From NCBI GenBank assembly GCA_029945625.1, contig JAQSCW010000031.1, forward strand, positions 1-64,000: a stretch of 64,000 nt of DNA, read 5' to 3'. Position 1 is the stretch's first letter. Every line of letters starts with the position of its first letter. Origin of the DNA: a bacterium. GTDB lineage: Bacteria; Bacteroidota; Bacteroidia; B-17B0; Aurantibacillaceae. Positions 31,733 through 47,760 of this stretch are shown piece by piece. The position numbers were made by a program, and so were the translations under genes. The notes under the pieces were generated by a model that did no database searches, was not told where the DNA came from, and saw nothing but the letters and a program-made list of their open reading frames with translations.

Positions 31733-32107
31733 TCAGAACTTGGGTGGGGGTGTATGTACAGGTTTTCGTTGAAAACGATACTCTATATTCTGGGTATAAA
31801 ATTTATGTTCTTGGTTATGAGTGGTCAGCCAATCGTAAGAAAACAAATCAAAATCAGACTCGGTCGGAGAGTTATCGTCTTCTGTGTCAGTCTCGTCTTC
31901 AGAAGCATCACAGGATTTCATTTTTTTAACGAGTTCGGTTTTTTGAACGAGAATTTCTTGTTTTTGCGCAGGAAAGTATTGGAATACGGTAAATAACATT
32001 CCTAACAGGAAGAACAAACTAAATATAAATCTCGCTTTTTTCAGGAATGGCTTCAAAACTAAATATAATTTAGGGATGAAGATCATAAAATTAACTAAAA
32101 TAGCCAA
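31733..32107 (-). CDS. Small single-helix protein with acidic patch, beside SulP 1
   Basis: Up to 124 aa from a TTG; a second TTG 17 codons later would give a cleaner N-terminus (MKPFLKK then a hydrophobic segment to about residue 46). After the helix come a basic/Gln segment, a strongly acidic stretch (CDASEDETDTEDDNS), an aromatic segment and a HTPPPKF tail. No family recognised. It sits between the RND pump gene (45 nt) and SulP 1. Two other small proteins of the same general build flank dabAB. It could be a transporter accessory protein or a regulatory leader peptide gene. Confidence 0.55.
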   Translation of the reverse strand: MAILVNFMIFIPKLYLVLKPFLKKARFIFSLFFLLGMLFTVFQYFPAQKQEILVQKTELVKKMKSCDASEDETDTEDDNSPTESDFDLFSYDWLTTHNQEHKFYTQNIEYRFQRKPVHTPPPKF

Positions 32108-32152
32108 ATGTATCTCTGTTGATAAAAGTAAGTACGCTTTCGCTTCTCAGTT

Positions 32153-35100
32153 CTAAATATCAACATGTTTATTACGTTGTGCCCAATAATAGAAAATTGG
32201 AAACACCATGAGTGTGAAAATAGTGGCAGTAACCAAACCGCCAATGATAACAACTGCGAGTGGTTTTTGCGATTCAGAACCAATGCCCGTTGATAAGGCG
32301 GCGGGCATTAATCCTATTGCTGCCATCAGTGCGGTCATCACAACCGGGCGGGTTCTCACCTTCACCGCTTCAAAGATGGAAGTTTCGAGGCTAAGTTTAT
32401 TACGCATATTGGCATGGAATTCGGAAATGAGGATGACTCCGTTTTGAATACAAATTCCAAATAAAGCAATGAATCCTACGCCACCTGATATGCCGAAATT
32501 AATACCGGTGAGGTGCAGTGCAAAAATGCCACCAATAAGTGCAAAAGGAACGTTGATAAGCACCAACAAGGCATCTTGAATGTTTCCAAACATGATGAAG
32601 AGCAATACAAAGATTAGTACCAAACTGATGGGAACTACTTGTGCCAGTCGCTTGGTGGCGCGCACCTGATTCTCGAACTCACCGGTCCATCCAATTTTGT
32701 AACCGTTGGGAAGTTTAATATGTTTCTCAACATTGGCTTGAGCTTCTGCAATGGTACTTCCCAAATCGCGTTCACGAATCGAGAATTTAACGCCAATAAA
32801 TCGTTTTGTATTATCGCGGTAAATAAAAGCCGGTCCGGTTATTTTTTTGAGAGTGGCAATCTCCTTCAATGGAATTAGTGCTCCTCTCACCGAACGCACC
32901 ATCAAATTCATCACATCGTCTTCGTCTTTTCTGTATTCTTTTGAATAGCGCACGCGGATGTCGAATTTTCGTTCGCCTTCGTATTTTTCGGTGGCCGTTT
33001 TTCCGCCAATAGCCATTTCAATGATACTTTGTGCGTCGGCTTTTCGAATGCCGTAGATCGCCATTTTTTCATCATCAAGGATGACACTTATTTCGGGTTG
33101 TCCAATATTTCGTAAGATGCCAACATCCTTAATGCCGGGCACATTCTTAATTTGCTCAATCACCTCATTTGCTATGTCGTCGAGTTTATCCAAGTCGTCG
33201 CCATAAATTTTTACTGCATTGCTGGCATTTATTCCCGCCACCGCTTCGGCCACATTGTCAATAATTGGTTGGGAGTAGTTGTAGATGATGCCCTGGTAAT
33301 TTTTAAGAACTTTATCCATCTCTTCCACCAGATCGTCGACCGAGATCTTTCGTTCCCAATCGTCTTTTGGTTTTAAATTCACCTGCATTTGTACATAGTA
33401 GAATCCGCTTGGGTCGGTACCATCATTACTTCGCCCGGTTTGTGATAAAACCCCGTTTACTTCCGGAAATTTTTCAAGTTCGGCACGCAACAATGCCACT
33501 GTTTTCACAGTTTCGGTGAGAGAGTTGCTCATGGGCAGCTTGGCTTCCACCCATAAAGCACCTTCGTTGAGTGGTGGTAAAAATTCAGTACCCAACCAGC
33601 GTGTTGAAAAGATAGAGAATACGAGGATGATCATTGAAATGACCAGACTCTTACGTTTATTTGCAAACGTAAATTTAAAGCCATTGGAAACGATCTTGTT
33701 GAAGAACTCCACAAACACATTGTGTTTTTCTTTTACGTTCTTCTTCAGTAAAATGGAAACTAATACCGGCACCAAGGTGAGCGTAAAGATGAGAGCCCCT
33801 AACAAGGCAAATCCCAGCGTGAAAGCGAGAGGCGAAAACATTTTTCCTTCTACTTTCTGAAATGCAAAGATGGGAAGCAGGGCCGAAATGATGATCAGTT
33901 TTGAAAAAAATACGGCCTTTCCAAGTCCTGACGCAGTGTTTTTTATAATTCCAAGTTTTGCCAGTTTATTAAATTGCTCCATGCCAATTTTTTTAGCCCG
34001 GTGGTCGAGCATCACAAAAAGGCCTTCTACCATGACGACGGCTCCGTCAATAATAATTCCAAAGTCGACCGCTCCCAGGGATAATAAATTGGCACTCATG
34101 CCTTTTAGTTTCAAGCATAGGAAAGCAAACAATAAAGCGAGCGGAATGATGATTGAAACAATTAATGTGGTACGCCAATCGGCCATAAAAATGAGAACGA
34201 TAAGTGTTACAAAAATGATCCCTTCAAATAAATTGTGCATCACTGTTTTTGTACAAAAATTCATCAGGTTATCGCGGTCGTAAAAAACTTCCATTTTCAC
34301 ATCTGAAGGAAGCACGGTGGTATTTATTTCAGTGATCTTGGCCTTTAAGCGGGCAAGTACCTCACTTGGATTTTCACCCTTTCGCATCACCACAATGCCT
34401 TCCACTACGTCGTCGTTGTCGCCCAAACCAACCTGACCAACACGTGGGGCACTAGATTCGGTAACCTGGGCCACATTTTTTACCAGAAGCGGATTGTCGT
34501 TGTATTCGTCAACAATTGTGTTTTCAATGTCTTGAATTGTATTGAGGAGGCCTAGTCCTCTGACAACATAGGCTTGTCCGTTTTTTTCGATGACATCGCC
34601 GCCCACATTTAAATTCGCTTTGCTTATGGCATCATATACCTGAGAAGGGGAGAGGTCGTACTTTTGAAGTTTAATAGGATCCACGGAGATCTCGTAGATC
34701 TTTTCCTGCCCGCCGAAAGCCACCACATCGGCGATGCCTGACACCGATCTAAGTTGGCGGTCAATAACCCAATTCTGAAGAGTGAGGAGGTCGCGGGTGT
34801 CCCTATTTTTTCCTCTGAGTACATAACGATATACTTCTCCCGTTGGGCCATAAGGCGGCTGCACATCCGGTTCTACATTTTCTGGCAGCATCACATTCCG
34901 TAATTGATTGTTCACCTGCTGTCGGGCGAAAAAATCTTCCACATTATCTTCAAAAATGATCTTGATCACCGAAAGTCCAAACATGGTGATGCTCCTCACA
35001 TTTGTTTTTTGTTGAACCGAATTCATTGCTATTTCGATGGGTGTGGTCACAAAACGTTCTACTTCTTCCGCGCTGCGGCCATTCCATTCCGTAACGATGA

Positions 35101-35251
35101 TGATCTGCGTGTTAGTAACGTCGGGAAATGCTTCAATGGGAATATTGATATAGCTGATCGCCCCTGCAATAACAAGAATCCCTACCCAAAAAAAAGTGAA
35201 TAACTTGTTTCTCAGTGAGAAAGTGATGATGTTCTTAATAAATTGATTCAT
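32153..35251 (-). CDS. HME-type RND heavy-metal efflux pump (CzcA/CusA family)
   Basis: 1032 aa, full length for the family, with 12 helices and two large periplasmic loops. The proton-relay signature DFGIIIDGAVVMVEG (Asp396, Asp402) in TM4 is the form found in Zn/Co/Cd/Ni exporters (CzcA/CnrA) more than in Cu/Ag exporters. It pumps metal ions from periplasm or cytosol through the adaptor and TolC-like channel encoded upstream. It ends 45 nt before the small acidic protein gene. The leader holds an 11-bp direct repeat (35267-35293). Its place inside a block of zinc-dependent CO2 enzymes suggests Zn as the substrate (inference). Confidence 0.92.
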   Translation of the reverse strand: MNQFIKNIITFSLRNKLFTFFWVGILVIAGAISYINIPIEAFPDVTNTQIIIVTEWNGRSAEEVERFVTTPIEIAMNSVQQKTNVRSITMFGLSVIKIIFEDNVEDFFARQQVNNQLRNVMLPENVEPDVQPPYGPTGEVYRYVLRGKNRDTRDLLTLQNWVIDRQLRSVSGIADVVAFGGQEKIYEISVDPIKLQKYDLSPSQVYDAISKANLNVGGDVIEKNGQAYVVRGLGLLNTIQDIENTIVDEYNDNPLLVKNVAQVTESSAPRVGQVGLGDNDDVVEGIVVMRKGENPSEVLARLKAKITEINTTVLPSDVKMEVFYDRDNLMNFCTKTVMHNLFEGIIFVTLIVLIFMADWRTTLIVSIIIPLALLFAFLCLKLKGMSANLLSLGAVDFGIIIDGAVVMVEGLFVMLDHRAKKIGMEQFNKLAKLGIIKNTASGLGKAVFFSKLIIISALLPIFAFQKVEGKMFSPLAFTLGFALLGALIFTLTLVPVLVSILLKKNVKEKHNVFVEFFNKIVSNGFKFTFANKRKSLVISMIILVFSIFSTRWLGTEFLPPLNEGALWVEAKLPMSNSLTETVKTVALLRAELEKFPEVNGVLSQTGRSNDGTDPSGFYYVQMQVNLKPKDDWERKISVDDLVEEMDKVLKNYQGIIYNYSQPIIDNVAEAVAGINASNAVKIYGDDLDKLDDIANEVIEQIKNVPGIKDVGILRNIGQPEISVILDDEKMAIYGIRKADAQSIIEMAIGGKTATEKYEGERKFDIRVRYSKEYRKDEDDVMNLMVRSVRGALIPLKEIATLKKITGPAFIYRDNTKRFIGVKFSIRERDLGSTIAEAQANVEKHIKLPNGYKIGWTGEFENQVRATKRLAQVVPISLVLIFVLLFIMFGNIQDALLVLINVPFALIGGIFALHLTGINFGISGGVGFIALFGICIQNGVILISEFHANMRNKLSLETSIFEAVKVRTRPVVMTALMAAIGLMPAALSTGIGSESQKPLAVVIIGGLVTATIFTLMVFPIFYYWAQRNKHVDI

Positions 35252-35266
35252 GGTTCATGTTTTTTT

Positions 35267-35293
35267 CCTGCCGGGATAGTTACCTGCCGGGAT
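35267..35293. repeat. Direct repeat CCTGCCGGGAT x2 in the RND pump leader
   Basis: Two identical 11-nt units at 35267-35277 and 35283-35293, 16 nt apart, in the 57-nt gap between the adaptor and pump genes. CCTGCCGGG also begins one arm of the inverted repeat upstream of SulP 2 (42449). Confidence 0.6.
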
Positions 35294-35308
35294 TTCATGC
35301 TTGTATTA

Positions 35309-36394
35309 CTAGTCGTTTAAGGCGTCGTAGATGAGAAGTCCGTTTTTCGAGATTACGTTTTCGTATTCTTTGATCCCGCTGCTGATATACGTGATATCGC
35401 CTAATCGACGGTAAACTTCCACATTCCGGGTTTCGATATGCGTTCGGTTCTTATACACCATCACCCAGTTCTTACTTTTATCGAAGATTACTGCGCTACT
35501 GGGAATTGAAACTAATTGTTTGTTTTCCGAAAATTTAAGATTAACAGTGGCATTCATTTCCGGTTTCAAGAGCAGGTCAGGATTGTGGATCTTGATCAGG
35601 ATCTTCATCGCTTTGGTTGTTGGGTCAATCACATTAAAGATTTTGTCCACCTTTCCCTTAAAGATCCTATCGGGATAACTCAGGGTTTGCACATCCGCTT
35701 CGTAATCGAGCGCAACTTTGGAAATATTCGATTCAGTAACATTTGCCAGCACCCACACCTCGTTAATCTGTGCAATTGAAAATACTTCTTCTGTTCTGTC
35801 GCTTCGTAATTCTTCGTTCTGGGTGATGTCCTTGTTGATGATGAAACCTGCAAGTGGTGCCGTGATGCTATATTCTGAGCCTTGCTTCAAATGATAAATG
35901 GCATAAACTTCGTTGATGCGCGTTAATTCCGAATTGGCTTTTTCAAGTTCTTTTTGTGTCGCCAAGACATCCTTTTCTGAATTTAATTTTCCGGCAAACA
36001 AGTCTTTGGCCACCTGTAAATTTTTTTCGGCCAAAGCTACATTCGATCGGGCATTTACAAGTTGACTCTGAAAGTCGGCCACCTCGCTGCTTCGCACCAC
36101 TGCAAGAAGTTGACCCTGATTCACATAATCGCCTAACTCAACATGAATTTCCGAAACGATGCCGCCTGTAATGGGGTACACATGCGCCATTTTATTGTTG
36201 TCGGCCGATACTTTACCAAATAACTTAAGTTCGTCCTTCACATCCTGCATACGCGCTTTGGTGAACTCACAGCGTTTGAGCATGGTGTCGGATAATTCAA
36301 ATACCTCCGAAACCTCGTCTTTTGGTGTCTGTTTGCAGGCACTTAGTGTCACTAAAACAACGCAACCTAATGCGAAAAAGGATCTTAAATTCAT
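35309..36394 (-). CDS. RND periplasmic adaptor (membrane fusion) lipoprotein
   Basis: 361 aa from ATG 36394; the upstream 13 codons do not form a signal. A lipobox TLSAC puts the lipidated cysteine at residue 20. The barrel-sandwich hybrid, alpha-hairpin coiled coil (SNVALAEKNLQVAKD... ELEKANSEL) and beta-barrel domains follow in the usual order of CusB/CzcB proteins. It bridges the RND pump and the TolC-like channel. The gene lies 13 nt after the TolC-like gene. Confidence 0.9.
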   Translation of the reverse strand: MNLRSFFALGCVVLVTLSACKQTPKDEVSEVFELSDTMLKRCEFTKARMQDVKDELKLFGKVSADNNKMAHVYPITGGIVSEIHVELGDYVNQGQLLAVVRSSEVADFQSQLVNARSNVALAEKNLQVAKDLFAGKLNSEKDVLATQKELEKANSELTRINEVYAIYHLKQGSEYSITAPLAGFIINKDITQNEELRSDRTEEVFSIAQINEVWVLANVTESNISKVALDYEADVQTLSYPDRIFKGKVDKIFNVIDPTTKAMKILIKIHNPDLLLKPEMNATVNLKFSENKQLVSIPSSAVIFDKSKNWVMVYKNRTHIETRNVEVYRRLGDITYISSGIKEYENVISKNGLLIYDALND

Positions 36395-36407
36395 TGTATT
36401 TTTATTT

Positions 36408-37661
36408 TTAATATATTTTGGTAGCAGTAACATAATTGATTTGAGCGGCTGAAATGGCTAATTGTTTTTTTATCCGTTCGTAATCGGCAAGCGATTCGTT
36501 ATAGGCCTCCACGTGGTCAACAAATTCAAGAATAGTGATGTTGCGTTGCTGGAAATTATTATTAACTCCTTTATTTACTTGGCTGAACTCTTCGTTAAAT
36601 AAGATCTTTATTTTGGAGTATTCGGTAATGCTGCGCTGCATGTTTACCCAGGCTTGCTGAATATCGAGTTCCACTTCCAGTTTCTTCTCCTGCACGTAAA
36701 GGTCCATCGCTTTTTTGTCGAATTCTGCCGCCCTAATATTGCCCCTGTTAGTATTAAATACAGGAACCGGAATGGCAAGGCCTGCATTTACCTGATTGTG
36801 AAAAGCTCCTCCGCGCTGATCGTAGCTTGAATTCACCGCAATATCGGGAATGGTTTGTTTTTTCTGCTGTTTCAAGATCAGCGCCGCCAGCAGTGCATTT
36901 TCATCGGCTATTTTCAAATCGGGTCTATTTGTGAGGGCTAAGGTCTGCAAGTCGTTCAACGGTTTTAAATCAAGGTAGTTGCCAAATATGGTTTCATTCA
37001 CCACAGGGTCAACATCTTGATTTACCTGTAACAGCATTTTAATTTGCTTTTGTTGATCACTAAAATCAGAAAGTAATTCCGATCGGTCGCCGCTTAACTT
37101 GATGTACACCGATTTTAGACGTACTATGTCTTTTAAGGGTAAATTTCCTTTTTCGGTTTGAACTTTGTAGGCATTAATAATTGTATCGAGAATTTGCAAT
37201 TGTTTATCGTAATTTGCTATTACCATTTTTTCACTGTTAATGCTGAAAAAACTAGAGTGTAATTGTACTTTCAAATTCCTAAGCAGTTCTGAAAATTCTG
37301 ATTCGGCAAGGATAGAATTTTGTTTCGCAATCTCTATTTCGGTTTTTCGCTTACCACCCAATAAGATGAGTTGCTGCACCTGAAATGATTTTTGACCGGA
37401 GGAGTCGATGTGGAAATATTTATCGTGTTGTGGATCGTACACATTGATATCGGCACTGAAAATCGGATTTGGGTATGCCTTCGCCTGAATAATAAGGGCC
37501 TGCTTTGCACTTATATTATATTGTCCGGCCAGCAGCATTAGATTATTCTTAAGAAAAAGTCCCTCGCATTCGTCCAAAGTGAGCGACCGCGTGCTCTGTG
37601 CCAAACCTATAAAAGAGAGGAGGCCGGTGAAAATCACTATGGGAAAAATCTTTCGTGTCAT
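36408..37661 (-). CDS. TolC-family outer-membrane channel of the metal efflux system
   Basis: 417 aa. The signal peptide ends near GLAQS. The two structural repeats of outer-membrane efflux proteins are visible: LTLDECEGLFLKNN near the N-terminus, and a second helical half from about 215 (LTNRPDLKIADENALLAAL). There is no lipobox. First gene of the channel-adaptor-pump set. It follows the OprB-like porin by 15 nt. Confidence 0.9.
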   Translation of the reverse strand: MTRKIFPIVIFTGLLSFIGLAQSTRSLTLDECEGLFLKNNLMLLAGQYNISAKQALIIQAKAYPNPIFSADINVYDPQHDKYFHIDSSGQKSFQVQQLILLGGKRKTEIEIAKQNSILAESEFSELLRNLKVQLHSSFFSINSEKMVIANYDKQLQILDTIINAYKVQTEKGNLPLKDIVRLKSVYIKLSGDRSELLSDFSDQQKQIKMLLQVNQDVDPVVNETIFGNYLDLKPLNDLQTLALTNRPDLKIADENALLAALILKQQKKQTIPDIAVNSSYDQRGGAFHNQVNAGLAIPVPVFNTNRGNIRAAEFDKKAMDLYVQEKKLEVELDIQQAWVNMQRSITEYSKIKILFNEEFSQVNKGVNNNFQQRNITILEFVDHVEAYNESLADYERIKKQLAISAAQINYVTATKIY

Positions 37662-37676
37662 GGTAGTGGTATTATC

Positions 37677-39026
37677 TCAAATATGAAAATGCATGCGTAT
37701 TGAATATACAGAAATTGGTCCGCGGTCTTTATTATAGCCGGGGTTCATAATGAATTGATACGCCACCGATGCGCCTATCCGGTCTGTCCATAAAGCCAGG
37801 TTATAAAATGCTTCAAAAAGATGCTCAGGGCCATAATTTAATTTGCCATCTCCTAACATAAAGCCAAGTCCTCCTGCGGCAAGATAATTGCGATGTTCGT
37901 TAGAGAGGCCCGACTGACAATAGGCAATTCCGATTACATCTTGTTTTCGATTCCACGAGCTGCCGTTTAATGAGGCACCAATACTAAGCGCACGGTCAAT
38001 TTCGGTGAAACACCAGGTCTCATTTTTTCCATCATTGTACGAGGCTCTGGCAAACAGACCCAGATGGCGGGTGATGGCTTGTTCAAAATTTAGTCCCGCA
38101 CCGTATTTACTTCTTCCGTATTGTCTGCTAGCCGTAATAGTGTATTCTTTCTTTTGTCCCGTGGGAGTGCTGCTATCAGGTACCACCACTATATTTTGAG
38201 CCGTATAACTTCCCATAAAAGCCGTGTTGTAATAAACCAATGCACTTATTTTTCCAATCAGTCCACGAAGCGCATAGTTGTATTTTAATTCCAGCACGCT
38301 GGCATTTGCCTTTGCCACATTCTTATCCATGGTATTGCCATTTGCCGTTTCAGGCATCATACTTAGCGCATAGCGCAGCTCTACTTTTTTACTGATGTAT
38401 TCCAGAATTATGCTGGGCGTATAACCTCTGGTATTGGCGGCATAATCCCATGCGCCATTGCTCATTAAACCCCAGCTGAAAAACTGCGTGCGAGGATTGT
38501 GCGAATAGGTATTGTCATCAAAGTAATCCGACACCGACACCTTTCCGATGGTAAAAGAAAGGTATTTTGTGGGGATGTATTGCTCAATTTTGTTATCGGT
38601 ATTGTCTTGCCATTCTCGCTCTTTCGTAAACGAGATCAACTGTCTAAAAAATCCCCGGGCCAGATAAATAGTAGGGTCGGGATTACCTACTCTAAAGGCT
38701 TCACCGTTTGTAAATGCGGCAATGCCGTAGGCGGAAGACAGACCGTGTCCTCCTGCAATTTCAGGGTTAATTACTACCTGTGCCTGAGGCCAAAGTTTTA
38801 CGCCGGCAAAAATAGAACTGGTGATGGTGGTTGCCCATTGATTTTCGGTTGTTTGACTGTGCAATCCCGTATAGGCTGCATGAAATTCAGGGCGGTATTG
38901 ACTCACCGTGGTTTCTTGAAAATGTAAGGTGTACCGTTCAACTTTTTTTTGAAGGGTGTCCTGCGCAAAGGAGGCACAATTTGAAGCAGTTACAATTGAA
39001 AACAGAAATGATTTCATTTGCATCAT
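37677..39026 (-). CDS. OprB-like carbohydrate-selective porin family protein
   Basis: 449 aa; the more likely start is the third Met, MKSFLFS (39017), whose signal peptide ends near CASFAQ. The sequence YTLHFQETTVSQYRPEFHAAYTGLHS and the later EQYIPTKYLSFTIGKVSVSDYFDDN resemble OprB porins, though many Bacteroidota members are found beside RND metal pumps and have no shown sugar role. It ends in an amphipathic strand with a terminal aromatic region (SIRMHFHI, His-rich). Probably an outer-membrane pore of the efflux or carbon island. Confidence 0.7.
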   Translation of the reverse strand: MMQMKSFLFSIVTASNCASFAQDTLQKKVERYTLHFQETTVSQYRPEFHAAYTGLHSQTTENQWATTITSSIFAGVKLWPQAQVVINPEIAGGHGLSSAYGIAAFTNGEAFRVGNPDPTIYLARGFFRQLISFTKEREWQDNTDNKIEQYIPTKYLSFTIGKVSVSDYFDDNTYSHNPRTQFFSWGLMSNGAWDYAANTRGYTPSIILEYISKKVELRYALSMMPETANGNTMDKNVAKANASVLELKYNYALRGLIGKISALVYYNTAFMGSYTAQNIVVVPDSSTPTGQKKEYTITASRQYGRSKYGAGLNFEQAITRHLGLFARASYNDGKNETWCFTEIDRALSIGASLNGSSWNRKQDVIGIAYCQSGLSNEHRNYLAAGGLGFMLGDGKLNYGPEHLFEAFYNLALWTDRIGASVAYQFIMNPGYNKDRGPISVYSIRMHFHI

Positions 39027-39141
39027 GATTTTTCTGTTTTACTCTTGCGAGACAAAAGAAAAGACGCAGGTAAAACAAAACACAAAGATAACGTGTTTCG
39101 TTCAACTTGAACAGGAATTACTTGCTGCATGTTGTACTTAC

Positions 39142-40563
39142 CTAAAAAAGTAGTTGATATTGAAGTGTCACACAACTTTTCCGGGGCCCCGCAACAATGT
39201 CAGATAAAGTATTTTTGGTGTAAGTTGGTCGGTTCTGGTAATCTAGAGATAGTTTTGACGAATGGCCCTTGATGAACCAGTTCATTCCCACATCAAACAG
39301 TAACATGGCCTTATTTTGCAGGGCCGTATAGTCGGCATATTGCCCGCTTACATATGGCATCAATTGACCATTTTTTTCTCCTAATACACTTTTTGGGAGA
39401 AGGAATCCACATTGAGCATATCCTACTTGCCCGGTGCCGAACATGGGAAATGCGTTTCCATAAGCAGCGCTTTGCACCATATTAGTGGCGGTTGAGCCGG
39501 TTCCGGGATTCATGGCACCGTTGTACCGCAGGTAATTGGTGCCGTAGTTCGTATTATAATATCCTGCAAAGGCGCTAATCATGGTGCCCTTTTCTTTGTC
39601 TAATGGCAGATCTAAAAATGTTTCCAAACTAAGGTGCAGCATGTTATTATAGGTGGTATCCTTGTATATACCCGCATTATCTTGCGTCAAGTTCCAGGTA
39701 GCAGCTTTTTGGTAGACACCTCCAATGGCCACGTTCCAAATTTTCTTGGTGCCCAGGTAGGTGCCTTGCATGTAGGGAGTTGTGTGATTTTCGTTTTCGA
39801 AGAAATTATAAGCCACATACCCCCCAAATTGGTTATTGATGCCCGGCCCGGTTCCGGGTTGCAGAGTTGCCACGTTTACAAAGGTGGCGTTTTTGCCGAT
39901 TGCTGCGGGAGCTGATCCGTTGGTGCTAATGGGAAAGGGATTGGAAAGGTAGGCGCGGTAATCAAATTTCCCCACTTGACCTCGTGCGTAAATAGCCAGG
40001 CGCCGGTCAAACTGATCGGTTTGGTCAACCGTGTACTGTAAAAATACGGGCACATCTAGGGTCATAATGGTGCCCACCGAGGGTTGTGAGAATCGCGACA
40101 GTCCGTTCAACACGGTTAATCCCCCTCCGATTTTTAATTCATTACCTTTTGAAACTTTGTATTCACACAGTGCATCGTGGAAAAACGCCGCAATTTTCCG
40201 ATTCCCTCCGGGAGTACTGCTATAGGCGGCGGTATTGTTGTAGTTGTTTTGGCCGAATTGAAAATACACAAACGTGCGGTCAGTGATCTGCCCAAACATC
40301 TGGATGCGCGTTCTTCTTAATCCGATATCAAAAGTACTTGGCGCACTTTTATTGAATAATGTGGTTCCGGGATCACTCTCGTTATACCGCACCCAGACCT
40401 GATTTAAAAAGGTGACCTGAAAGAAATGTGAACCGCTTGCATTGATGTTGAACTTCAACGCGCTTTTTTCAGGTGCAACTTTTTTTGTTGTGTCAATTTG
40501 TTGCGCCTCATTTATAAGCGGTGCTATCATACTTACTAACAGAAGGAATAGTGTCTTTTTCAT
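39142..40563 (-). CDS. Phosphate-selective porin O/P-like outer-membrane porin
   Basis: 473 aa. Signal peptide to about NEAQQ (residue 22). The body starts HFFQVTFLNQVWVRYNESDPG and has regular amphipathic strands (GLRRTRIQMFGQITDRTFVYFQFGQNN) like 16-strand OprP/O porins. It ends in a terminal Phe (QYQLLF), the BAM recognition signal. It lies downstream of SulP 2, with a long inverted repeat in its leader (40588-40663). Anion selectivity would fit bicarbonate entry, but this is not shown by sequence. Confidence 0.75.
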   Translation of the reverse strand: MKKTLFLLLVSMIAPLINEAQQIDTTKKVAPEKSALKFNINASGSHFFQVTFLNQVWVRYNESDPGTTLFNKSAPSTFDIGLRRTRIQMFGQITDRTFVYFQFGQNNYNNTAAYSSTPGGNRKIAAFFHDALCEYKVSKGNELKIGGGLTVLNGLSRFSQPSVGTIMTLDVPVFLQYTVDQTDQFDRRLAIYARGQVGKFDYRAYLSNPFPISTNGSAPAAIGKNATFVNVATLQPGTGPGINNQFGGYVAYNFFENENHTTPYMQGTYLGTKKIWNVAIGGVYQKAATWNLTQDNAGIYKDTTYNNMLHLSLETFLDLPLDKEKGTMISAFAGYYNTNYGTNYLRYNGAMNPGTGSTATNMVQSAAYGNAFPMFGTGQVGYAQCGFLLPKSVLGEKNGQLMPYVSGQYADYTALQNKAMLLFDVGMNWFIKGHSSKLSLDYQNRPTYTKNTLSDIVAGPRKSCVTLQYQLLF

Positions 40564-40587
40564 AAAATTAGTTTTAAGAATAAAAAT

Positions 40588-40663
40588 CTTGCCAGGGCCC
40601 CGGAAATCTAATATATTGGAAAACTATGAAATAAACCAAAAAGTAGCACCGGGGCCTGACAAG
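40588..40663. repeat. Long inverted repeat in the leader of the OprP-like porin gene
   Basis: Arm CTTGCCAGGGCCCCGG (40588-40603) pairs with CCGGGGCCTGACAAG (40649-40663), with one mismatch and one bulged base, across about 45 nt. It stands 25 nt upstream of the minus-strand porin start. Confidence 0.7.
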
Positions 40664-40767
40664 TTGCTTGAGCTCTCTTAACTTAGAGACTCAATGCGTT
40701 TAAATTTTAATTTGTGTGTTTGACTTGATTTAAAATACATACTATTTAATAGAAAGATTAACAGTAT

Positions 40768-42390
40768 TTAATTGCTTATGAGTTTATTAACGCGTGTAGA
40801 GGTTGGGTCAGCAGCTAATTGTCGGTGATTTTCAAAACCAATCACATTCACTTTCCCGCCATCATCAACATACGAATCAACCAAACCGTTAATGGTTACC
40901 AGACAAGTATGATCCACAATCTTTGCTTCCGACATATCAATGGTGACCTGCTGACCGGCAGGGATGTTGAGGAATTTCTTTTTGAATCCCAGGAGGTTTG
41001 AAAAAATTAGATCATCTTTCACCACCATCAGAAAATCGCCGTTCTCAATTCTCACTTCAACATTAGTTTTGAAGAGATTTTTGAGAGAAGCACCATTAAT
41101 TAAATTAATGACCATTTCTAAAAGAATTCCACTGCCAACGCCCATCAGTAAATCGGTAGAAATTGTAACTAGGATGGTTACTGTGAAAACAACCAATTGC
41201 TCTTTACCAATGTGAAGGGCATGACTGAATTGTCGTGGATGTGCAAGTCTGAAACCAACAAACACCAACATTGCAGCAAGCGCCACATTTGGGATCATCT
41301 CAATAAACGGAACCGCAACCAGAATGGCAAGCAACAGAAATAAGCCGTGAAAGAAATTGGCCCAACGGGTTCTTGCTCCATACCCAACGTTGGCGGAGCT
41401 ACGGGCCACCTCACTAATCATGGGTAGTCCACCCAAAATCCCACTTATGGTATTTCCAATTCCCACACCAATCAGATCTTTATTATAGTCCGTTTTGCGT
41501 TTGTAAGGATCCATGCCATCCACGGCTTTAGCTGTTAAGAGACTTTCAAGACTGCCAATCAATGAGTAAAGAATGACATATTGAATAAATATGCCTGTAT
41601 GTGCAGTAATTCCCGAAAAATCAACATTGACTAAGCCATTTTTAAAAGCTTCTGACAAACTACCGATCTTCACCAAAGCAAAGTTGGCAATTTGTCCGTC
41701 GGTTTTTATGTGAAGTGCAAACCCTAAAGGTATTGCTACGGCCAACACAACAAGGGGAGCTGGAATTTTTTTTACTTTGTCGTTTTTCACGAAATTCATC
41801 AACACCATAATTAATAGGCAGGCAATGCCTATTTCGGCGAGGTGTGCGTTTTCATGTACAATGCTGGAAGGGAGCATCGCAAGCAATTGAAGCGGCTCCT
41901 TACCTTTAAGTTCTGATGGATTAATTCCAAGAAGCAAATGCAATTGTTTGGCCATGATAATGATTCCGATGGCTGCCAACATACCATGGATGGCAGCGCT
42001 GGGAAAAAAATCAGCGAGTTTTCCAAGTTTAAAAACTCCGAAAAGCACCTGAATTAAACCTGCTACAACAACAACACCCAGGGCCAGATGCCATCCAATT
42101 TCGCCATCGCCAAATGCGGTTACAGAACCCGCTGCAATAACGATTAGACCTGCCGCAGGTCCTTTTATGGACAAACGTGATCCCATAAAAAAACTCACAA
42201 TCACTCCTCCCACAATGGCGGTGACCAAGCCAAAGATCATGGGGAAATTAGACGCTTTTGCAATGCCTAAACTTAAGGGCATCGCTAATAAAAATACCAA
42301 AAAGCCCGAAAGTGCATCTTTGGAGAAATTCTCTTTCAAACCCGCAAGACCATCGGCGGGAATATATTTTTTTGTTTTTTGATTTGACAT
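40768..42390 (-). CDS. SulP-family anion transporter 2 with STAS domain (probable bicarbonate)
   Basis: 540 aa. The transmembrane domain (about 20-420) has the same landmarks as SulP 1 (FLLAMPLSLGIAKASNFP, GPAAGLIVIAAGS, GGLPMISEVARSSANV). It is followed by a complete STAS domain (about 450-530, VTIDMSEAKIVDHTCLVTI). It lies 145 nt after a small protein gene that directly follows dabB, so all may be one transcript broken by the inverted repeat at 42449-42533. A second SulP next to dabAB suggests layered bicarbonate uptake. Confidence 0.9.
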   Translation of the reverse strand: MSNQKTKKYIPADGLAGLKENFSKDALSGFLVFLLAMPLSLGIAKASNFPMIFGLVTAIVGGVIVSFFMGSRLSIKGPAAGLIVIAAGSVTAFGDGEIGWHLALGVVVVAGLIQVLFGVFKLGKLADFFPSAAIHGMLAAIGIIIMAKQLHLLLGINPSELKGKEPLQLLAMLPSSIVHENAHLAEIGIACLLIMVLMNFVKNDKVKKIPAPLVVLAVAIPLGFALHIKTDGQIANFALVKIGSLSEAFKNGLVNVDFSGITAHTGIFIQYVILYSLIGSLESLLTAKAVDGMDPYKRKTDYNKDLIGVGIGNTISGILGGLPMISEVARSSANVGYGARTRWANFFHGLFLLLAILVAVPFIEMIPNVALAAMLVFVGFRLAHPRQFSHALHIGKEQLVVFTVTILVTISTDLLMGVGSGILLEMVINLINGASLKNLFKTNVEVRIENGDFLMVVKDDLIFSNLLGFKKKFLNIPAGQQVTIDMSEAKIVDHTCLVTINGLVDSYVDDGGKVNVIGFENHRQLAADPTSTRVNKLISN

Positions 42391-42448
42391 AATTGTTTTA
42401 CTATTTTTTGTGTTTGATGTGTGCTTTTAAAAATTCTAGGAATTGGTG

Positions 42449-42533
42449 CCTGCCGGGCATGCAAGTCCGATACGTGCGGTTCTTGAAACATTTTACAGTG
42501 TCAATTAGCGCGGTATAGCATGCCCGGGGCAGG
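42449..42533. repeat. Long inverted repeat in the leader of SulP 2
   Basis: Arm CCTGCCGGGCATGC (42449-42462) pairs with GCATGCCCGGGGCAGG (42518-42533) with a 2-nt bulge, across about 55 nt. A second pair AAGTCC / GGACTT lies next to the arms. It stands 59 nt before the minus-strand SulP start, and could be a terminator-like or leader structure after the dabAB transcript. Confidence 0.7.
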
Positions 42534-42535
42534 AC

Positions 42536-42925
42536 TTAAGACAGGTAGGTTTTCCAGGAATGGAGTAGAATGTAAAGTGGGATTTTCTTTACAAAATGAT
42601 AATAAGGAAGTGCGGTGAGTAGGGGTTCTTCATTCTCACTTAGGGTTGCACGAGCAGTCAGTAAAAGGTCATTCGAATATTCGTCGTTGTCCGAAACTTC
42701 CTCTTCCAGGAATTCAGAGTTGCTCGACTGCAAGTACTGCAGTCCTGAAACAGTAGAAGGATTATATTTCTTTTGAATACTTAGAGAAGTTTTCCCTTTA
42801 GTCTGCGTAAGTTTATAATACGAGAGGGTATTACTACCGGAAAACAGTATACTCAACGACAAAATCACAGAGAAAAAAATTCTCAAATTTGCAGAAGTCA
42901 AATATGTAAATGGGTTACCGCGCAA
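42536..42925 (-). CDS. Small single-helix protein with acidic patch, between dabB and SulP 2
   Basis: 129 aa from TTG at 42925, 2 nt after the dabB stop; a TTG 13 codons later (before RIFFSVILSLSILF) is an alternative start. One hydrophobic segment (about 14-32) is followed by a basic Gln/Lys region, an acidic patch (EFLEEEVSDNDEYSND) and a hydrophobic-aromatic C-terminus. No family recognised. It shares the layout with the small proteins at 31733 and 47393; the local match SS-x(3)-(I/F)-(S/L)EEV near the acidic patch with the latter is suggestive only. Confidence 0.5.
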   Translation of the reverse strand: MRGNPFTYLTSANLRIFFSVILSLSILFSGSNTLSYYKLTQTKGKTSLSIQKKYNPSTVSGLQYLQSSNSEFLEEEVSDNDEYSNDLLLTARATLSENEEPLLTALPYYHFVKKIPLYILLHSWKTYLS

Positions 42926-42927
42926 GA

Positions 42928-44802
42928 TTAAGATGATTTATAGGGAGTTTCGTGATATGTTTTTATATGTGGACCCAGAAAAATACGACCATAGAGGCGA
43001 ATCAATGACAAACCGTCGATGATAAAACCCAAGGAGGTGATGGCAGCCAGCACATATTGGTCTTCTTTAATATGGGTGTAGATAAGGTCTTCACCTATAA
43101 AAGTAGGAGTAATGGGGAAACCTGTGAGTCCTAAACAGGCTACTAGAAAAGTGAAAGCAATTCGAGGATGTTCGTACACGTGTCCGTGAAAATTTCCTAG
43201 ATCGGTGCTTTCTTCCAGCAATTTTATTTTTCGAAGTGCAAACATCCCAACGGTTCCTGCAAGGACTATGCCGCTGAGGTACATGAATACCTGATCGATT
43301 TTAAACTCTTCATTAAAAGATATCGCCAAAGCTACCCAGAAGTGATTCATGATAATAAGGATCCAGCTCATCAGCACATTTTTACGTTCGGTAAAGGATT
43401 TCAATACCATTGATAAACCGATTAGTGAAAATAAAGCAGGCAGATAATCTCGAATCTGGTCCGGAATATCCACGCGCGCATAAAGGCACCAAATTCCAAT
43501 GAGGTAAGAGGGGAGGAAGAACCAAAAAATTGTGTGGATGTTAAGAAAGTTAAGTTTTCGGCCGACACTCTTTAAAGGGTTCCATAAAAAACGTGCCATA
43601 AAAAGATCCAAATCCCATTCTCTTAAACTCCAAATATAAATGCTGTGTTCAATTCTTTTAGGCCAGGTATCTTCAAAAGTGAGTTCGCGAGGCTGGAAAT
43701 TATAAAATTGTTCCCGAATAAGGTAGCTGGCAACCGAAGGCGAAACCAGTAATTGGTATGTTCTTAAAAAAGCGTTACCGGCAAAGTGAATGAGAGCAAG
43801 TGTTTCAAAGCCCAGTCCCACTTCAATAAAAATTAATCCTATTTGGGCCACCGAAGAGTAGGCGATTTGACTTTTTACCGACGACTGAACACGGGCAATC
43901 AGTGAGGCCACAATGCTGGTTGCCAAACCAAGTAATACAATCACCACCCGCGCTGTGTATTGGTGTTCCCAGAATTCGCGGGTCCTTAATAAAAGAAATA
44001 CACCTATGTGCACCGACAGCGACCCGTAAAAAATGGCGCTGGAAGGCGTTGGTCCCTCCATAGCTCTTGGCAGCCAGGACGAAAATGGAAGTTGCGCCGA
44101 TTTTGCGGCAGCTGTTATAAGAATCATTAAGGCAATAAAAACGCCTACAGGACTGTGAACCTCCAGCTGGGTATTTACCAATTGATCGTTCTGCAATTGC
44201 ATAAAGCTGATGTTTTGATGCCATAAATGATGACTCATCCACATGGCCATTATCAAACCAATGTCGCCAATACGATATACTGTAAATACCTTCACTGCAT
44301 TTCTCACCGGTAAAAATCGTTCTCTGTAAAATGCAATTAGTAAAAAGGAACAAATGCCTAAAATTTCCCAACCAATAAATAGCGTTTCAATATTTCCCGA
44401 CAAAACGGTGATACAGTATCCAATGTAGAAGAAAAGGAGTGTGTTAAAAAAGCGCTTGTATCCCTTTTCACGGTGTAAATACACCCTGCTATAGATCGAA
44501 ACCAGAAATGTAAGAATTGATCCTACAAATAAATACATGGCTGTAATTTTGTCGAAACAAAAATCCAAATAGAATTCATAGCCCGCTGTTTTGTATATCA
44601 CAATATCTTTAAGGTCAATGGTAAGTCCTGAATTAGAGATCCATTGAAAGAAAAGTAACACAAACGTGAGAAAATGCAGAGCCACCGTGTAGGTCGACAC
44701 CGACGAGATGGCCGCTTCAAATCTTTCGGGAATACACAAACTCACCACGTATCCAAATACAGGAAGTAAGATCAAAATATGTAGAAGGAGTGTTGTGCTC
44801 AT
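42928..44802 (-). CDS. dabB: DabB, NuoL-like proton channel subunit of the DAB bicarbonate system
   Basis: 624 aa, about 14-16 membrane helices, homologous to complex I antiporter-like subunits. FIGWEILGICSFLLIAFY carries the conserved membrane Glu, and RIGDIGLIM and AAAKSAQLPFSSWLPRAMEGPTPSSA the proton-channel Lys and substrate-path motifs. In DAB complexes this subunit supplies the cation gradient (H+ or Na+) that drives the DabA hydration reaction. It starts 3 nt after dabA, and no other nuo genes are present, so it is not a respiratory subunit. Confidence 0.9.
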   Translation of the reverse strand: MSTTLLLHILILLPVFGYVVSLCIPERFEAAISSVSTYTVALHFLTFVLLFFQWISNSGLTIDLKDIVIYKTAGYEFYLDFCFDKITAMYLFVGSILTFLVSIYSRVYLHREKGYKRFFNTLLFFYIGYCITVLSGNIETLFIGWEILGICSFLLIAFYRERFLPVRNAVKVFTVYRIGDIGLIMAMWMSHHLWHQNISFMQLQNDQLVNTQLEVHSPVGVFIALMILITAAAKSAQLPFSSWLPRAMEGPTPSSAIFYGSLSVHIGVFLLLRTREFWEHQYTARVVIVLLGLATSIVASLIARVQSSVKSQIAYSSVAQIGLIFIEVGLGFETLALIHFAGNAFLRTYQLLVSPSVASYLIREQFYNFQPRELTFEDTWPKRIEHSIYIWSLREWDLDLFMARFLWNPLKSVGRKLNFLNIHTIFWFFLPSYLIGIWCLYARVDIPDQIRDYLPALFSLIGLSMVLKSFTERKNVLMSWILIIMNHFWVALAISFNEEFKIDQVFMYLSGIVLAGTVGMFALRKIKLLEESTDLGNFHGHVYEHPRIAFTFLVACLGLTGFPITPTFIGEDLIYTHIKEDQYVLAAITSLGFIIDGLSLIRLYGRIFLGPHIKTYHETPYKSS

Positions 44803-44805
44803 TGT

Positions 44806-47298
44806 TTAATCAAGAACAAAAACAGGAAGATTATCCCTGCGGGTAGTTAATAATTCTGACACATCCTGAATCCGGGAAAATTCTTTACTCAGTGGTTGGT
44901 AGAGAACAAATTCACCATCCCTGAATTCAAATAATTGTTTTGTTTCGGGATTTAAAGCTACCAGATGGATCCATTCATTAATATACCATTCATACACCGC
45001 ATCGGCAGATTTGATTGTTTTTAAAACTATTTCGGGGAAATGTTCAACCACAATGAGCAACCTTACGGGGTCATGCACCTCTGTCATTTGATTGGGTAAT
45101 CCGGGTCTGAGATCACCATCAAACCCGTTTGCCACACCAAAAAGACCCATCACATTATGTGGTAATTTGGTACCGGCCCCCAATTTCTCATTGTCAACTC
45201 TTGAGAAATAATACTCGAGGTTGATTCCGCCGCAAACCGGGCCAAGAGGTTTCATGATATTGGTAAGAATGGTTCCATCCGCGTCAATCCGGTAATCGTA
45301 TGAGTTTGCAAATGCCCTTCTGTCGAGAAACAAATTTTTGGTGAGCAACCTCCTGCCTACAATGCAAAGCGCATTAGTGGCGTGATTTAATTCGGGCCGC
45401 GGTTCAAACAAAGAGACAGACCGCGTGAGAATCTTTTTATGAATCTCGCGCGGCGATAACTTCAAATCAATTAATTCGAATCGCCTTGCCCGCTCTCGTG
45501 CATTTTGTTCAAGGGCCTGATTGATCGCTAGCACATTTTTTGTGTGGATGGCCAATTTTTCTTCCGAAAGTAGATTTTCGTCATAAAACACCATCTCGTC
45601 GCGCGTGGTATCATGTAATGCCCCAATAAACGTTGTTGAATCAGGAATTGCTAGCCCTTTAGAACTCAGTATTGCCCTTACTTCGGCATGATTGGCCATG
45701 TTGCAAACAACCCGTGCATTTACCGAACCGGCCCTACCGGAGCAGGCACCACAGTTGTATGCGGCATAATGTGGATTGTTTGCGCTGCTTGCGCCGTGAC
45801 CTATTACATAAACAAAAGGTGCAAAGTGCTCCACCAGTCCAATGCTCTTCAGTAATCCTTCCACACGTGTGGCCATCTCGTCCACCGTATAACCAATTTG
45901 CAGATCTTTGTCTTTGGCGTTTTTTTCATCGAAGTTGATGCTCAGTTTCGATACTTTGTCCATGTGGTTAAATGAAGAGGAGGTAGCCGGACTCATGGAA
46001 GGTTTAAAAATGCTGAGGAAAAGCCGAAACGCAGACCAAAAGCCGAGGGTAGGGGCCATGATCCAACCTTTAAATAAGGAATGCGTATGGTTGGTAAGAT
46101 GCACGTCCTTTTTGCGGTCCTCCGAAATATCAATTTCTTTGATTAAATATTTTGGAAATACCGGTGCAGGACATTGTTTAGTATAAGATTTGCCATGCTC
46201 CGGCTGAAAATAAAATTCCACACCAAAAAAGCCGGGTGTCCCGAATGTTTCACAGGCCGGGTCAACTTTTTCCATGTAATCACGAAATGAAAGTTCACGG
46301 TCATCGATACACAACATGGCTTGAAATGTTTTTACTGCGGGCGCCGGTGCGACTTCCGGTTTACTTGCGATGGCATACAGTACATCGTCGTAGTAACTCC
46401 ATTCATAAGCATCTTGCCATAACGATAGCACAGTGTCGTACTCACTTTGAGGCACCTCGGAAAAAATATCTTCGGGTCGCTCCTCCACTTTAAATCCTAA
46501 GGGCGACCATATTTCTCCGAACTTTTGATCAAGCGCGTCAATCTCCAGCAGCAACTCAAGAATAATAAGGTCCTTCAAACTTACCCGTTTGGTATCAAGT
46601 AGTGTTTCAGGAAAGTCTTCAATGGCCGATACCATGCCCGACCATCCTTGATGCGCAAATTGCTGATCGTACAAATACTGTTTGTATAGAGCAGGATCAC
46701 CTACTACTATTTTTAGAAGGTCGGAAATCTTGCAGCGACTTCTCAACAAATTTTTGGCTCTTTTGCTCTTAAAGAAGCTGGCATAGGAATTTTTTTCAAT
46801 TTCACGAATGGAATTTAAAAAGCCTTTGTGTAATACCGGGAAATTCCAAATCGAGATGCCTTGGTCGAGGTAACTGCAAATGATACGAAAGAGAGGAGGA
46901 TGCACAAGTACATCAAGGTCCATACCAAATTGCACTTCCCATTGCGATCGAAGCTTGCCCACCCGTGCCTCAGTGGTCATGTCATATTTTTTTGAAAGAA
47001 GTTTACTTTTCCATTCGTTCACATTTTCCTTCCCCATGCGTTCACGGAGCACGCGGGAAAGCACATCTTCTCTGATTCGGCCTGATACATAGAGGCGGCG
47101 AAATTCGTCCAAGGCCAGTGAGGTTTTATATCCAAATATTTTGGAGGAATTACGCAAGGCCGTAAAAAACTTCTGATGCTGAAAGGCATGTAGGGTATTA
47201 TGATGAATGAAGTCTTTTAAAGGCGACTGCGCCGGCAAATAATGCTTTAGTTCGTGAAGAACATCATGCTCATTAAAACCAGAATCCACTTTTTCCAT
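44806..47298 (-). CDS. dabA: DabA, DUF2309 carbonic-anhydrase-like subunit of the DAB inorganic-carbon transporter
   Basis: 830 aa, the length expected for UPF0753/DUF2309. The zinc-site residues reported for Halothiobacillus DabA (Cys351, Asp353, His524, Cys539) correspond to Cys330-x-Asp332 (LCIDDRE) and His501 with Cys516 (GHGASS ... NCGAC) with identical spacing (2 and 15 residues). The beta-CA-like active site is therefore intact. DabA is thought to hydrate CO2 to bicarbonate at the inner face, driven by DabB. It is the first large gene of the dabA-dabB-small protein-SulP 2 run. Confidence 0.93.
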   Translation of the reverse strand: MEKVDSGFNEHDVLHELKHYLPAQSPLKDFIHHNTLHAFQHQKFFTALRNSSKIFGYKTSLALDEFRRLYVSGRIREDVLSRVLRERMGKENVNEWKSKLLSKKYDMTTEARVGKLRSQWEVQFGMDLDVLVHPPLFRIICSYLDQGISIWNFPVLHKGFLNSIREIEKNSYASFFKSKRAKNLLRSRCKISDLLKIVVGDPALYKQYLYDQQFAHQGWSGMVSAIEDFPETLLDTKRVSLKDLIILELLLEIDALDQKFGEIWSPLGFKVEERPEDIFSEVPQSEYDTVLSLWQDAYEWSYYDDVLYAIASKPEVAPAPAVKTFQAMLCIDDRELSFRDYMEKVDPACETFGTPGFFGVEFYFQPEHGKSYTKQCPAPVFPKYLIKEIDISEDRKKDVHLTNHTHSLFKGWIMAPTLGFWSAFRLFLSIFKPSMSPATSSSFNHMDKVSKLSINFDEKNAKDKDLQIGYTVDEMATRVEGLLKSIGLVEHFAPFVYVIGHGASSANNPHYAAYNCGACSGRAGSVNARVVCNMANHAEVRAILSSKGLAIPDSTTFIGALHDTTRDEMVFYDENLLSEEKLAIHTKNVLAINQALEQNARERARRFELIDLKLSPREIHKKILTRSVSLFEPRPELNHATNALCIVGRRLLTKNLFLDRRAFANSYDYRIDADGTILTNIMKPLGPVCGGINLEYYFSRVDNEKLGAGTKLPHNVMGLFGVANGFDGDLRPGLPNQMTEVHDPVRLLIVVEHFPEIVLKTIKSADAVYEWYINEWIHLVALNPETKQLFEFRDGEFVLYQPLSKEFSRIQDVSELLTTRRDNLPVFVLD

Positions 47299-47392
47299 TT
47301 TATTAATTTATTTGTTTTTATTTGGTAAACAATTATCATCCACACGCCACGGTATACGCCGAGAATGTGTAAGCAAAAAGGCCTAATAAAAA

Positions 47393-47746
47393 TCAAATAC
47401 GGAAACTTCGCACAGAGAGAAAGATCGGAACGCGAAGAGTTTCGGTAGCGAATCTTTGAGCGATAAAGGGGGTGTGAAAGATGTGTAAAGTGAAACAAGA
47501 TACGGTGAAAGGTAAAATTACAGTGGCCAGTTCAAAATCATTTTCCAATTCGCTTTCCACCTCTTCAGAGATCTGCTGAACAGAACTGGCTCCCACTTGT
47601 TCGTGTTTTTGAAGTACTTGTGCATGCATTCCGCCCCCTGAGAGAAAAGAGGCCGATGCTTCAAATGCGAGCAAGGAAAACAGCATAAATGAACCCAAAA
47701 AAAGGACCAGATTAAATTTGCAGAGTGTATGTTGTTTCTTCTTCAC
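47393..47746 (-). CDS. Small exported protein with acidic patch, upstream of dabA
   Basis: 117 aa from GTG at 47746; a TTG three codons earlier falls inside a TATCTTTG -7-like box and is unlikely to be translated. A good signal peptide follows the start (KKKQH..., hydrophobic core, cleavage near EASAS, about residue 30). The mature part has a His/Gln region (MHAQVLQKHEQ), an acidic patch (ISEEVESELEND), and a hydrophobic C-terminus rich in Phe and Ile. No family recognised. It lies 94 nt before dabA and probably heads that transcript. Confidence 0.5.
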   Translation of the reverse strand: MKKKQHTLCKFNLVLFLGSFMLFSLLAFEASASFLSGGGMHAQVLQKHEQVGASSVQQISEEVESELENDFELATVILPFTVSCFTLHIFHTPFIAQRFATETLRVPIFLSVRSFRI

Positions 47747-47752
47747 CGGAAA

Positions 47753-47760
47753 CAAAGATA
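47753..47760 (-). promoter_or_regulatory. Candidate -7 box of the dab operon
   Basis: On the minus strand TATCTTTG (47760-47753) matches TAnnTTTG and ends 6 nt before the GTG start, so the transcript may be leaderless. No clear -33 element was seen. Confidence 0.4.

Follow-up and report, generated by a model that had tools for sequence, protein, structure and literature searches.

The 64,000-nucleotide stretch analysed here (the window; positions 1 to 64,000 of contig JAQSCW010000031.1, assembly GCA_029945625.1, from a bacterium of the Aurantibacillaceae, Bacteroidota) raises the question of what three small open reading frames (ORFs) do beside its bicarbonate-transport genes. An earlier note on this DNA had pointed them out and proposed that they are either a new family of accessory or regulatory proteins for CO2/bicarbonate transport or small leader genes of the ordinary sort; we call them leaders A, B and C. 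All three were confirmed, on the minus strand, at 117-129 amino acids (aa), and each has the N-terminal hydrophobic segment (called by hydropathy only), the central acidic patch and the distinctive end ascribed to it (TPPPKF in A, PLYILLHSWKTYLS in B, VPIFLSVRSFRI in C). Their neighbours do encode DabA, DabB, two SulP transporters and a beta-carbonic anhydrase (CA), and the DAB/SulP neighbourhood, whose conservation the note had asked to see checked, is strongly conserved. The leaders belong to a recurrent class of ORFs of about 95-145 aa without a family model, found directly upstream of SulP, CA-SulP or DabA. We consider it likely, judging from sequence comparison, that the three ORFs encode cis-acting leader peptides, i.e., nascent-chain sensors, that control the inorganic-carbon transport gene following them.

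The occurrence of such ORFs before SulP was determined by a census. A search with SulP 1 matched 165 of 247 Bacteroidia genomes, and the best-ranked 90 loci were used (30 + 60, with one contig-start match skipped). Two of these end at a contig edge, leaving 88 assessable loci, the window's SulP 1 among them. A leader was counted where SulP or CA-SulP was directly preceded by an ORF 75-180 aa long whose last eight residues include PP. By this rule 53 of the 88 loci have a PP-tailed leader, three have another small ORF and 32 have none; the first 30 loci, on which the rule was formed, gave 20/29, and the 60 loci fetched after it (four of them glimpsed earlier) gave 33/59. The 53 leaders come from 53 of the 82 genomes and represent 26 of the 36 families. 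For comparison, 695 other genes from 1.2 Mb of a genome of the same genus were scored. None has a PP-tailed small ORF upstream, and PP occurs in the last eight residues of only one of the 695 proteins there and of three of the 181 ORFs of at least 150 aa within the SulP loci. An unanchored profile built from ten SulP 1 leaders (A3) matched nine of 198 genomes of the class, and the best match in each lay directly before SulP or CA-SulP, three of the nine being rows of the profile itself; a tenth and weakest match, inside a 561-aa ORF, was spurious.

Leaders also precede DabA modules. A DabA search in 60 related genomes matched 20, including the window's own, and gave 19 further loci. Leader-like small ORFs stand directly upstream of 30 of the 42 SulP/DabA genes that lie off contig edges (window excluded, a split dabA counted once), and the remaining 12 adjoin another module gene (-34 to 43 nt) and have no leader. 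Since these leaderless genes lie directly behind module genes, the ORF heads a module or sub-module and is not tied to one gene. A DabA search of GTDB genomes yielded 45 loci, all from metagenome-assembled Bacteroidota (Chitinophagaceae, Cyclobacteriaceae, Flavobacteriia, Sphingobacteriaceae and others). A leader was found in 32 of the 34 assessable loci (35 ORFs, the one at locus L165 being cut by the locus edge), either ahead of the transporter or CA gene that opens the module, or ahead of SulP 2 behind dabB; among the 13 other loci, 11 are cut by a contig or locus edge, and L172 and L191 have no leader.

The C-terminal tails are of two kinds. Leaders before SulP 1 typically end in [TS]PP(P)[EKN]x (T1), and those before DabA or SulP 2 in PIYLSVxxFRI (T2; for example PIYLSVCNFRI and PIFLSIRVLRI). 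In the 53 T1 leaders the proline run has two (19 leaders), three (30) or four (4) residues and is followed by 2-5 more; the residue before it is T in 18/53 and S in 14/53, and the residue after it is E (28), K (10), N (7), D (4), Q (3) or C (1). Since every one of the four proline codons and of the three stop codons is used, it is the amino acid sequence that is conserved, not the DNA. The T2 tail was scored with a matrix trained only on 17 tails of HYC_CC_PP (NCBIfam NF047658), a family of metal leaders, with the 99th percentile of 695 control proteins (2.1) as the threshold. This was exceeded by 15 of the 16 leaders of group A1, which includes leader C, by 3/6 A2 leaders and 10/15 further T2 leaders, and by 0/53 T1 leaders. 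When tail and downstream gene were required together in the same-genus 1.2 Mb (without its dab cluster) and the window, only three ORFs remained out of 261 small ORFs, 73 of which have an N-terminal hydrophobic segment: one HYC_CC_PP-like leader, leader A and leader C. Leader B escapes this rule. In the eight closest pairs of leaders (seven T1, one T2; three from one clade and three with a synonymous divergence, dS, above 1.5), the ratio of nonsynonymous to synonymous change (dN/dS) was 0.04-0.22.

The earlier note recognised no family, and Pfam and NCBIfam indeed give no match above cut-off for leaders A, B and C. The A1 members have scattered weak matches in NCBIfam (best E 0.011, one member) and the A3 members in Pfam (best E 0.0041, one member), and no solved structure matched below E 0.1. 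An A1 profile proved too weak phylum-wide, with two matches in 296 phylum genomes, both profile members. Homology among the three, which the note had asked to see checked, holds for the B and C types (hhalign probability 96.3, E 1.9e-9) and was not detected for A and C, which align over 13 columns. Despite undetectable sequence homology, the A and C types are alike in architecture and geometry.

The geometry concerns the distance from the acidic patch, defined as the most acidic 13-residue window and measured from its centre, to the C-terminus. This distance is 59.5 +/- 7.4 residues in T1 leaders (n=53) and 56.0 +/- 4.5 in the T2 group (A1 + A2, n=22), with a mean net acid per 13 residues of 5.3 and 6.3 (weakest T1 leader, 2). 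Leaders with a shuffled middle have a spread of about 23, with minima of 17.7 (T1) and 14.8 (T2) in 300 shuffles. A replicate set of 27 leaders (35 minus 8 redundant or cut) gave 63.0 +/- 7.9 for T1 (n=12; shuffles mean 23.0, minimum 9.3) and 56.5 +/- 6.6 for T2 (n=15; shuffles mean 23.7, minimum 13.4), and net acid and distance together picked out 18/27 replicate leaders, compared with 0/38 control small ORFs with an N-terminal transmembrane segment. The distance, about 57-60 residues overall, is fixed even between sequences that cannot be aligned, and census, null and geometry together put the leaders far beyond chance. In T1 leaders the distance from the patch to the hydrophobic segment varies more (spread 13.2), which means that the position of the patch is set from the C-terminal end; in T2 leaders the spreads to the hydrophobic segment and to the C-terminus are similar (5.6 and 4.5).

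The sequence TANNTTTG, which we take to be the Bacteroidota -7 promoter consensus, was searched for in the 180 nt upstream of the T1 leaders (9,540 bases) and in the leader-transporter spacers (5,275 bases). It stands upstream of 36/53 leaders (8.5 in shuffles, 5 on the opposite strand) and within 2/53 spacers (5.6 in shuffles). Its presence before the leader and rarity in the spacer suggest that leader and transporter probably share a transcript starting at the leader.

If the ORFs are leader peptides, the N-terminus would take the ribosome to SecYEG, and the ribosome would pause at the tail, at or just before the stop codon. About 30-35 residues of a nascent chain occupy the ribosomal exit tunnel. 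With this length held in the tunnel of the paused ribosome, the acidic patch would be crossing the translocon, and the speed of its withdrawal, set by the membrane potential acting on the charges or by cation or proton binding, would determine the dwell time. The parked ribosome would alter the folding of the spacer and thereby the initiation of the transporter gene or continued transcription; the leader product itself is probably disposable. In published work (PMC7886326) a nascent chain reaches the translocon some 40-50 residues from the peptidyl transferase centre. A patch at 50-65 would accordingly sit in or just past the channel while the tail is made. Membrane potential pulls on acidic residues and frees the SecM arrest (Ismail 2015, via the review PMC6028853), and DAB2 catalysis requires membrane potential (PMC13144422). 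Together with the patch geometry, these results suggest, rather than demonstrate, a membrane-potential gauge, in which the acidic patch lies in the SecYEG pore and the stall time reports the driving force available to DAB, and perhaps SulP, and adjusts their synthesis. In its full form this proposal further holds that leaders of the same build report periplasmic metals where Cys/His replaces the acidic patch and lies about 15 residues further from the C-terminus, the sensing segments being exchangeable on a shared arrest tail; we offer the joint claim tentatively, and it may well be wrong.

Compared with dinucleotide shuffles, the spacers of T1 leaders (25-239 nt, median 95) have the more stable predicted folds (mean z -1.74, n=53, with shuffles and not other intergenic regions as the reference), and terminator-like hairpins occur in 4/53 of them against 1.0 in shuffles. 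Pairing between leader end and transporter start appears in the predicted folds of L090, L104/L120, L116 and L126/L134 and between leader C and dabA, and a swap test of this pairing gave z -7.3 for T1, -3.3 for T2 and -2.4 for the control. Against dinucleotide shuffles, the Fisher p was 5e-6 for T1 and 0.02 for control gene pairs.

Several observations weigh against control by the nascent leader. Pairing at p<=0.05 is found in 11/53 T1 and 3/18 T2 spacers but also in 8/45 control gene pairs, and the start codons are about as accessible as those of controls (0.52 vs 0.53). A PP-tailed leader is missing at 35/88 SulP loci. There are two kinds of tail; B and C have no polyproline, and B scores as neither kind (T2 score -8.2), its end continuing past the usual tail position. 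As to published systems, no stalled product was obtained from SecM-style fusions with the proline tail of CutF, the nascent exported copper sensor compared below, whose authors leave stalling open (PMC9973294); in the charge-pulling study, basic and uncharged residues gave release as well (PMC6028853). A class-wide RNA switch was considered and is not claimed, because the pairing excess is not clearly beyond that of control gene pairs.

The constant neighbourhood would also suit a small accessory membrane protein, i.e., a subunit or trans-acting modulator of SulP or DAB with its acidic part in the periplasm. Small single-transmembrane subunits are common, and AlphaFold2 predicts the N-terminal helix confidently. 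However, it is confident for that helix only (weak evidence, from 9 and 6 sequences): a second helix in leader C (71-89) has a predicted local distance difference test score (pLDDT) of about 50, and the last residues of leader A reach a pLDDT of 70-84 but have no secondary structure. Moreover, the sequence is little constrained beyond tail and geometry, the ORF in CA-SulP operons precedes CA and not SulP, and the 12 SulP/DabA genes directly behind another module gene do without it. Because the ORF lies towards the 5' end of the probable transcript, before whichever gene leads (CA, SulP or DabA), and because the C-type leaders share their tail with the HYC_CC_PP metal leaders, we favour a regulatory leader peptide; the subunit, the other side of the earlier proposal, seems unlikely.

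Translation-coupled attenuation of transcription would dispense with export sensing, the tail slowing the ribosome and translation of the leader controlling Rho-dependent or intrinsic termination in the spacer. The stability of the spacers and the excess of terminator-like hairpins speak for it, but 49/53 spacers have no terminator-like site in the hairpin scan, and the hydrophobic segment and the fixed distance of the acidic patch are left unexplained, making this reading improbable. The acidic run might instead destabilise the ribosome intrinsically, for which an MgtL-like response to Mg2+ is the model, so that translation aborts at the patch and does not stall at the tail. A D/E-rich patch is present in nearly all leaders; yet it comes on average only after about 55-60 residues of the chain, its place in T1 leaders is set from the C-terminus, and the tail is conserved up to the stop codon, and we hold this reading to be very improbable. 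The signal-like N-terminal segment and the position of the tail at the C-terminus would finally fit a secreted small protein outside regulation, with the tail as a sorting or degradation signal. The strict linkage to inorganic-carbon genes, the promoter-like element before the ORF and not behind it, and two unrelated tails at equivalent positions make such a protein barely credible.

The features of the window are collected in Table 1. On the minus strand the order is leader C, dabA, dabB, leader B, SulP 2, porin, outer-membrane-like protein, tolC, cusB, cusA, leader A, SulP 1 and beta-CA; cusA was assigned by NCBIfam, and porin, outer-membrane protein, tolC and cusB are labels judged from sequence. 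The spacer between leader A and SulP 1 is 68 nt. The suspicion that all three ORFs begin at non-ATG codons holds for B and C, which have no ATG before the hydrophobic segment, but not for A, which has an in-frame ATG and for which relatives point to a later start. The first in-frame TTG of leader C, at 47755, would give an ORF at 47393-47755 of 120 aa. No TANNTTTG match was found before leader B, which lies 2 nt behind dabB.

Table 1. Features of the inorganic-carbon transport region of the window (all genes and ORFs on the minus strand)
Feature	Position	Strand	Remarks
Leader C	47393..47746	-	upstream of dabA; 117 aa from GTG 47746; homologues in the same place in relatives
Acidic patch, leader C (SEEVESELENDFE)	47531..47569	-	centre 52 residues from C-terminus
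C-terminal tail, leader C (VPIFLSVRSFRI), T2 type	47396..47431	-	scores 17.0 on the HYC_CC_PP-tail matrix
TATCTTTG, promoter-like	47753..47760	-	matches TANNTTTG; 6 nt before the leader C GTG start
Spacer leader C/dabA, 94 nt	47299..47392	-	predicted fold: leader end can pair with dabA start region
dabA, inorganic carbon transporter subunit	44806..47298	-	PF10070
dabB, proton-antiporter-like subunit	42928..44802	-	PF00361 (Proton_antipo_M)
Leader B	42536..42925	-	between dabB and SulP 2; 129 aa, TTG start
Acidic patch, leader B (EFLEEEVSDNDEY)	42677..42715	-	centre 54 residues from C-terminus
Spacer leader B/SulP 2, 145 nt	42391..42535	-	predicted fold: strong GC-rich hairpin immediately past leader B stop
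SulP 2 transporter	40768..42390	-	PF00916
Leader A	31733..32107	-	between cusA and SulP 1; 124 aa, TTG start; alternative ATG 32086
Acidic patch, leader A (SEDETDTEDDNSPTESDFD)	31847..31903	-	densest 13 residues centred 53 from C-terminus
Polyproline tail, leader A (TPPPKF, then stop), T1 type	31736..31753	-	proline run before the stop
TACATTTG, promoter-like element, leader A	32105..32112	-	matches TANNTTTG
TAGTTTTG, second promoter-like match, leader A	32054-32061	-	matches TANNTTTG
SulP 1 transporter	30147..31664	-	PF00916
Beta-carbonic anhydrase	29499..30143	-	PF00484

Some further observations concern these loci. The promoter-like element of leader C is so close to the GTG that the mRNA would be nearly leaderless. 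Inside the bicarbonate-transport cluster, between SulP 2 and leader A, lies an operon for heavy-metal efflux of the CusCBA type, together with a porin and another outer-membrane-like protein (32153-40563). Leader A starts 45 nt after CusA, directly behind this operon, parts of which some relatives (L022, L025) have nearby. At nine of the 35 SulP loci without a PP-tailed leader, the nearest upstream gene is a regulator by inspection (five of the nine Pfam-checked; leader-bearing loci were not counted likewise), TetR-like at L064, L083, L105 and L136 and histidine-kinase-like at L075, L081, L098, L102 and L103, as if another regulator substituted for the leader; at least one leader-bearing locus, L138, also has a TetR-like neighbour. 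In locus L176 dabAB lies between two SulP 1 genes whose PP-tailed leaders are near-identical, and leader and transporter appear to duplicate together. L033 and several other SulP matches are frames of about 720-755 aa, with an extension of about 200 residues, and dabA is split into two frames in L037 and was matched as two pieces of one frame in G026:C38.

Little was found in print on the regulation of inorganic-carbon uptake in Bacteroidota. Among the top matches listed in the open literature, subscription papers and supplements lying outside it, none described a leader peptide in front of SulP, DAB or carbonic anhydrase genes. If our reading is true, the bicarbonate/CO2 transporters of Bacteroidota would be under nascent-chain sensors, a kind so far known for protein export and metals. 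The fixed placement of the patch gives a testable prediction, namely that membrane potential or cations would be sensed in the translocon. For annotation, the finding provides a rule by which small genes without a family model can be found.

The leaders can be compared with three known systems. CutF is exported while nascent, and its control of the next gene depends on both its sensing motif and its proline tail (PMC9973294). Like the window ORFs, it is below 150 aa and has an N-terminal export signal, a sensing middle and a same-strand target shortly downstream; all three window ORFs have a same-strand downstream gene within 1,000 nt, as in the search for CutF-like proteins. The proline motif near the C-terminus is shared by the A type: PP in the last 15 residues is found in leader A and at 53/88 SulP loci, but not in leaders B and C. 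Unlike CutF, the window ORFs have an acidic patch and no CxxxC, and their targets are SulP, CA and DAB; CutF has been shown to sense and to control the gene that follows it, which we presume of the window ORFs. The published list of CutF-like proteins comes from Bacteroidota at 40% when normalised and 19% otherwise, and its neighbours are mostly metal-related; the main text of that paper, as distinct from its supplements, contains no SulP, sulfate, carbonic, bicarbonate or carbonate (PMC9973294).

Arrest peptides with NSP/NAP-stop ends arrest translation in vitro, with the stop codon important, in a survey covering sec/yidC genes (PMC10987492). They resemble the leaders in being upstream ORFs with a localisation signal, a spacer of more than 30 aa and a conserved C-terminus at or near the stop codon; the leaders likewise are upstream ORFs with a localisation signal (by hydropathy) and a conserved C-terminus more than 30 aa away, as in the SecM type. 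They differ in their tails and in their sec/yidC targets, and arrest in the leaders is presumed by us. A survey of RAPP/RGPP leaders, in the text available, does not mention SulP or carbonic anhydrase (PMC12992588).

HYC_CC_PP, on which no papers were found in the open literature, is the system with which the C type shares its tail, linking these leaders to metal leaders. It too is from Bacteroidota, occurring in 33/41 related genomes with the window's own included, and many of the genes viewed precede metal-related-looking genes (HMA-domain-like or RND-efflux-like, judged from sequence starts). Its N-terminal segment is alike (hhalign with A1, 27 columns, that segment only), its C-terminal tail is that of the C-type leaders (present in leader C, absent from leader B), and its sensing motif, too, keeps a fixed distance to the C-terminus. 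However, the leaders lack the HYC and CC motifs, and PP in HYC_CC_PP is not terminal. NF047658 gave no match for leaders A, B or C (E up to 1) or for A1 members (E up to 0.1). Across 17 HYC_CC_PP sequences (L143-L162), CC lies 70-77 and PP 15-18 residues from the C-terminus, and none has an acidic patch 45-65 residues from the end; Cys+His per five residues reaches 1.65 there and at most 0.55 in T1 leaders. This layout points to a shared translocon geometry in which the metal site would already have emerged. The leaders are best filed as secreted nascent-chain leader peptides, which would be new in their acidic sensing segment and their inorganic-carbon transporter targets; by model score they stand outside HYC_CC_PP, they have no CutF metal site, and they would work like both if our inference holds.

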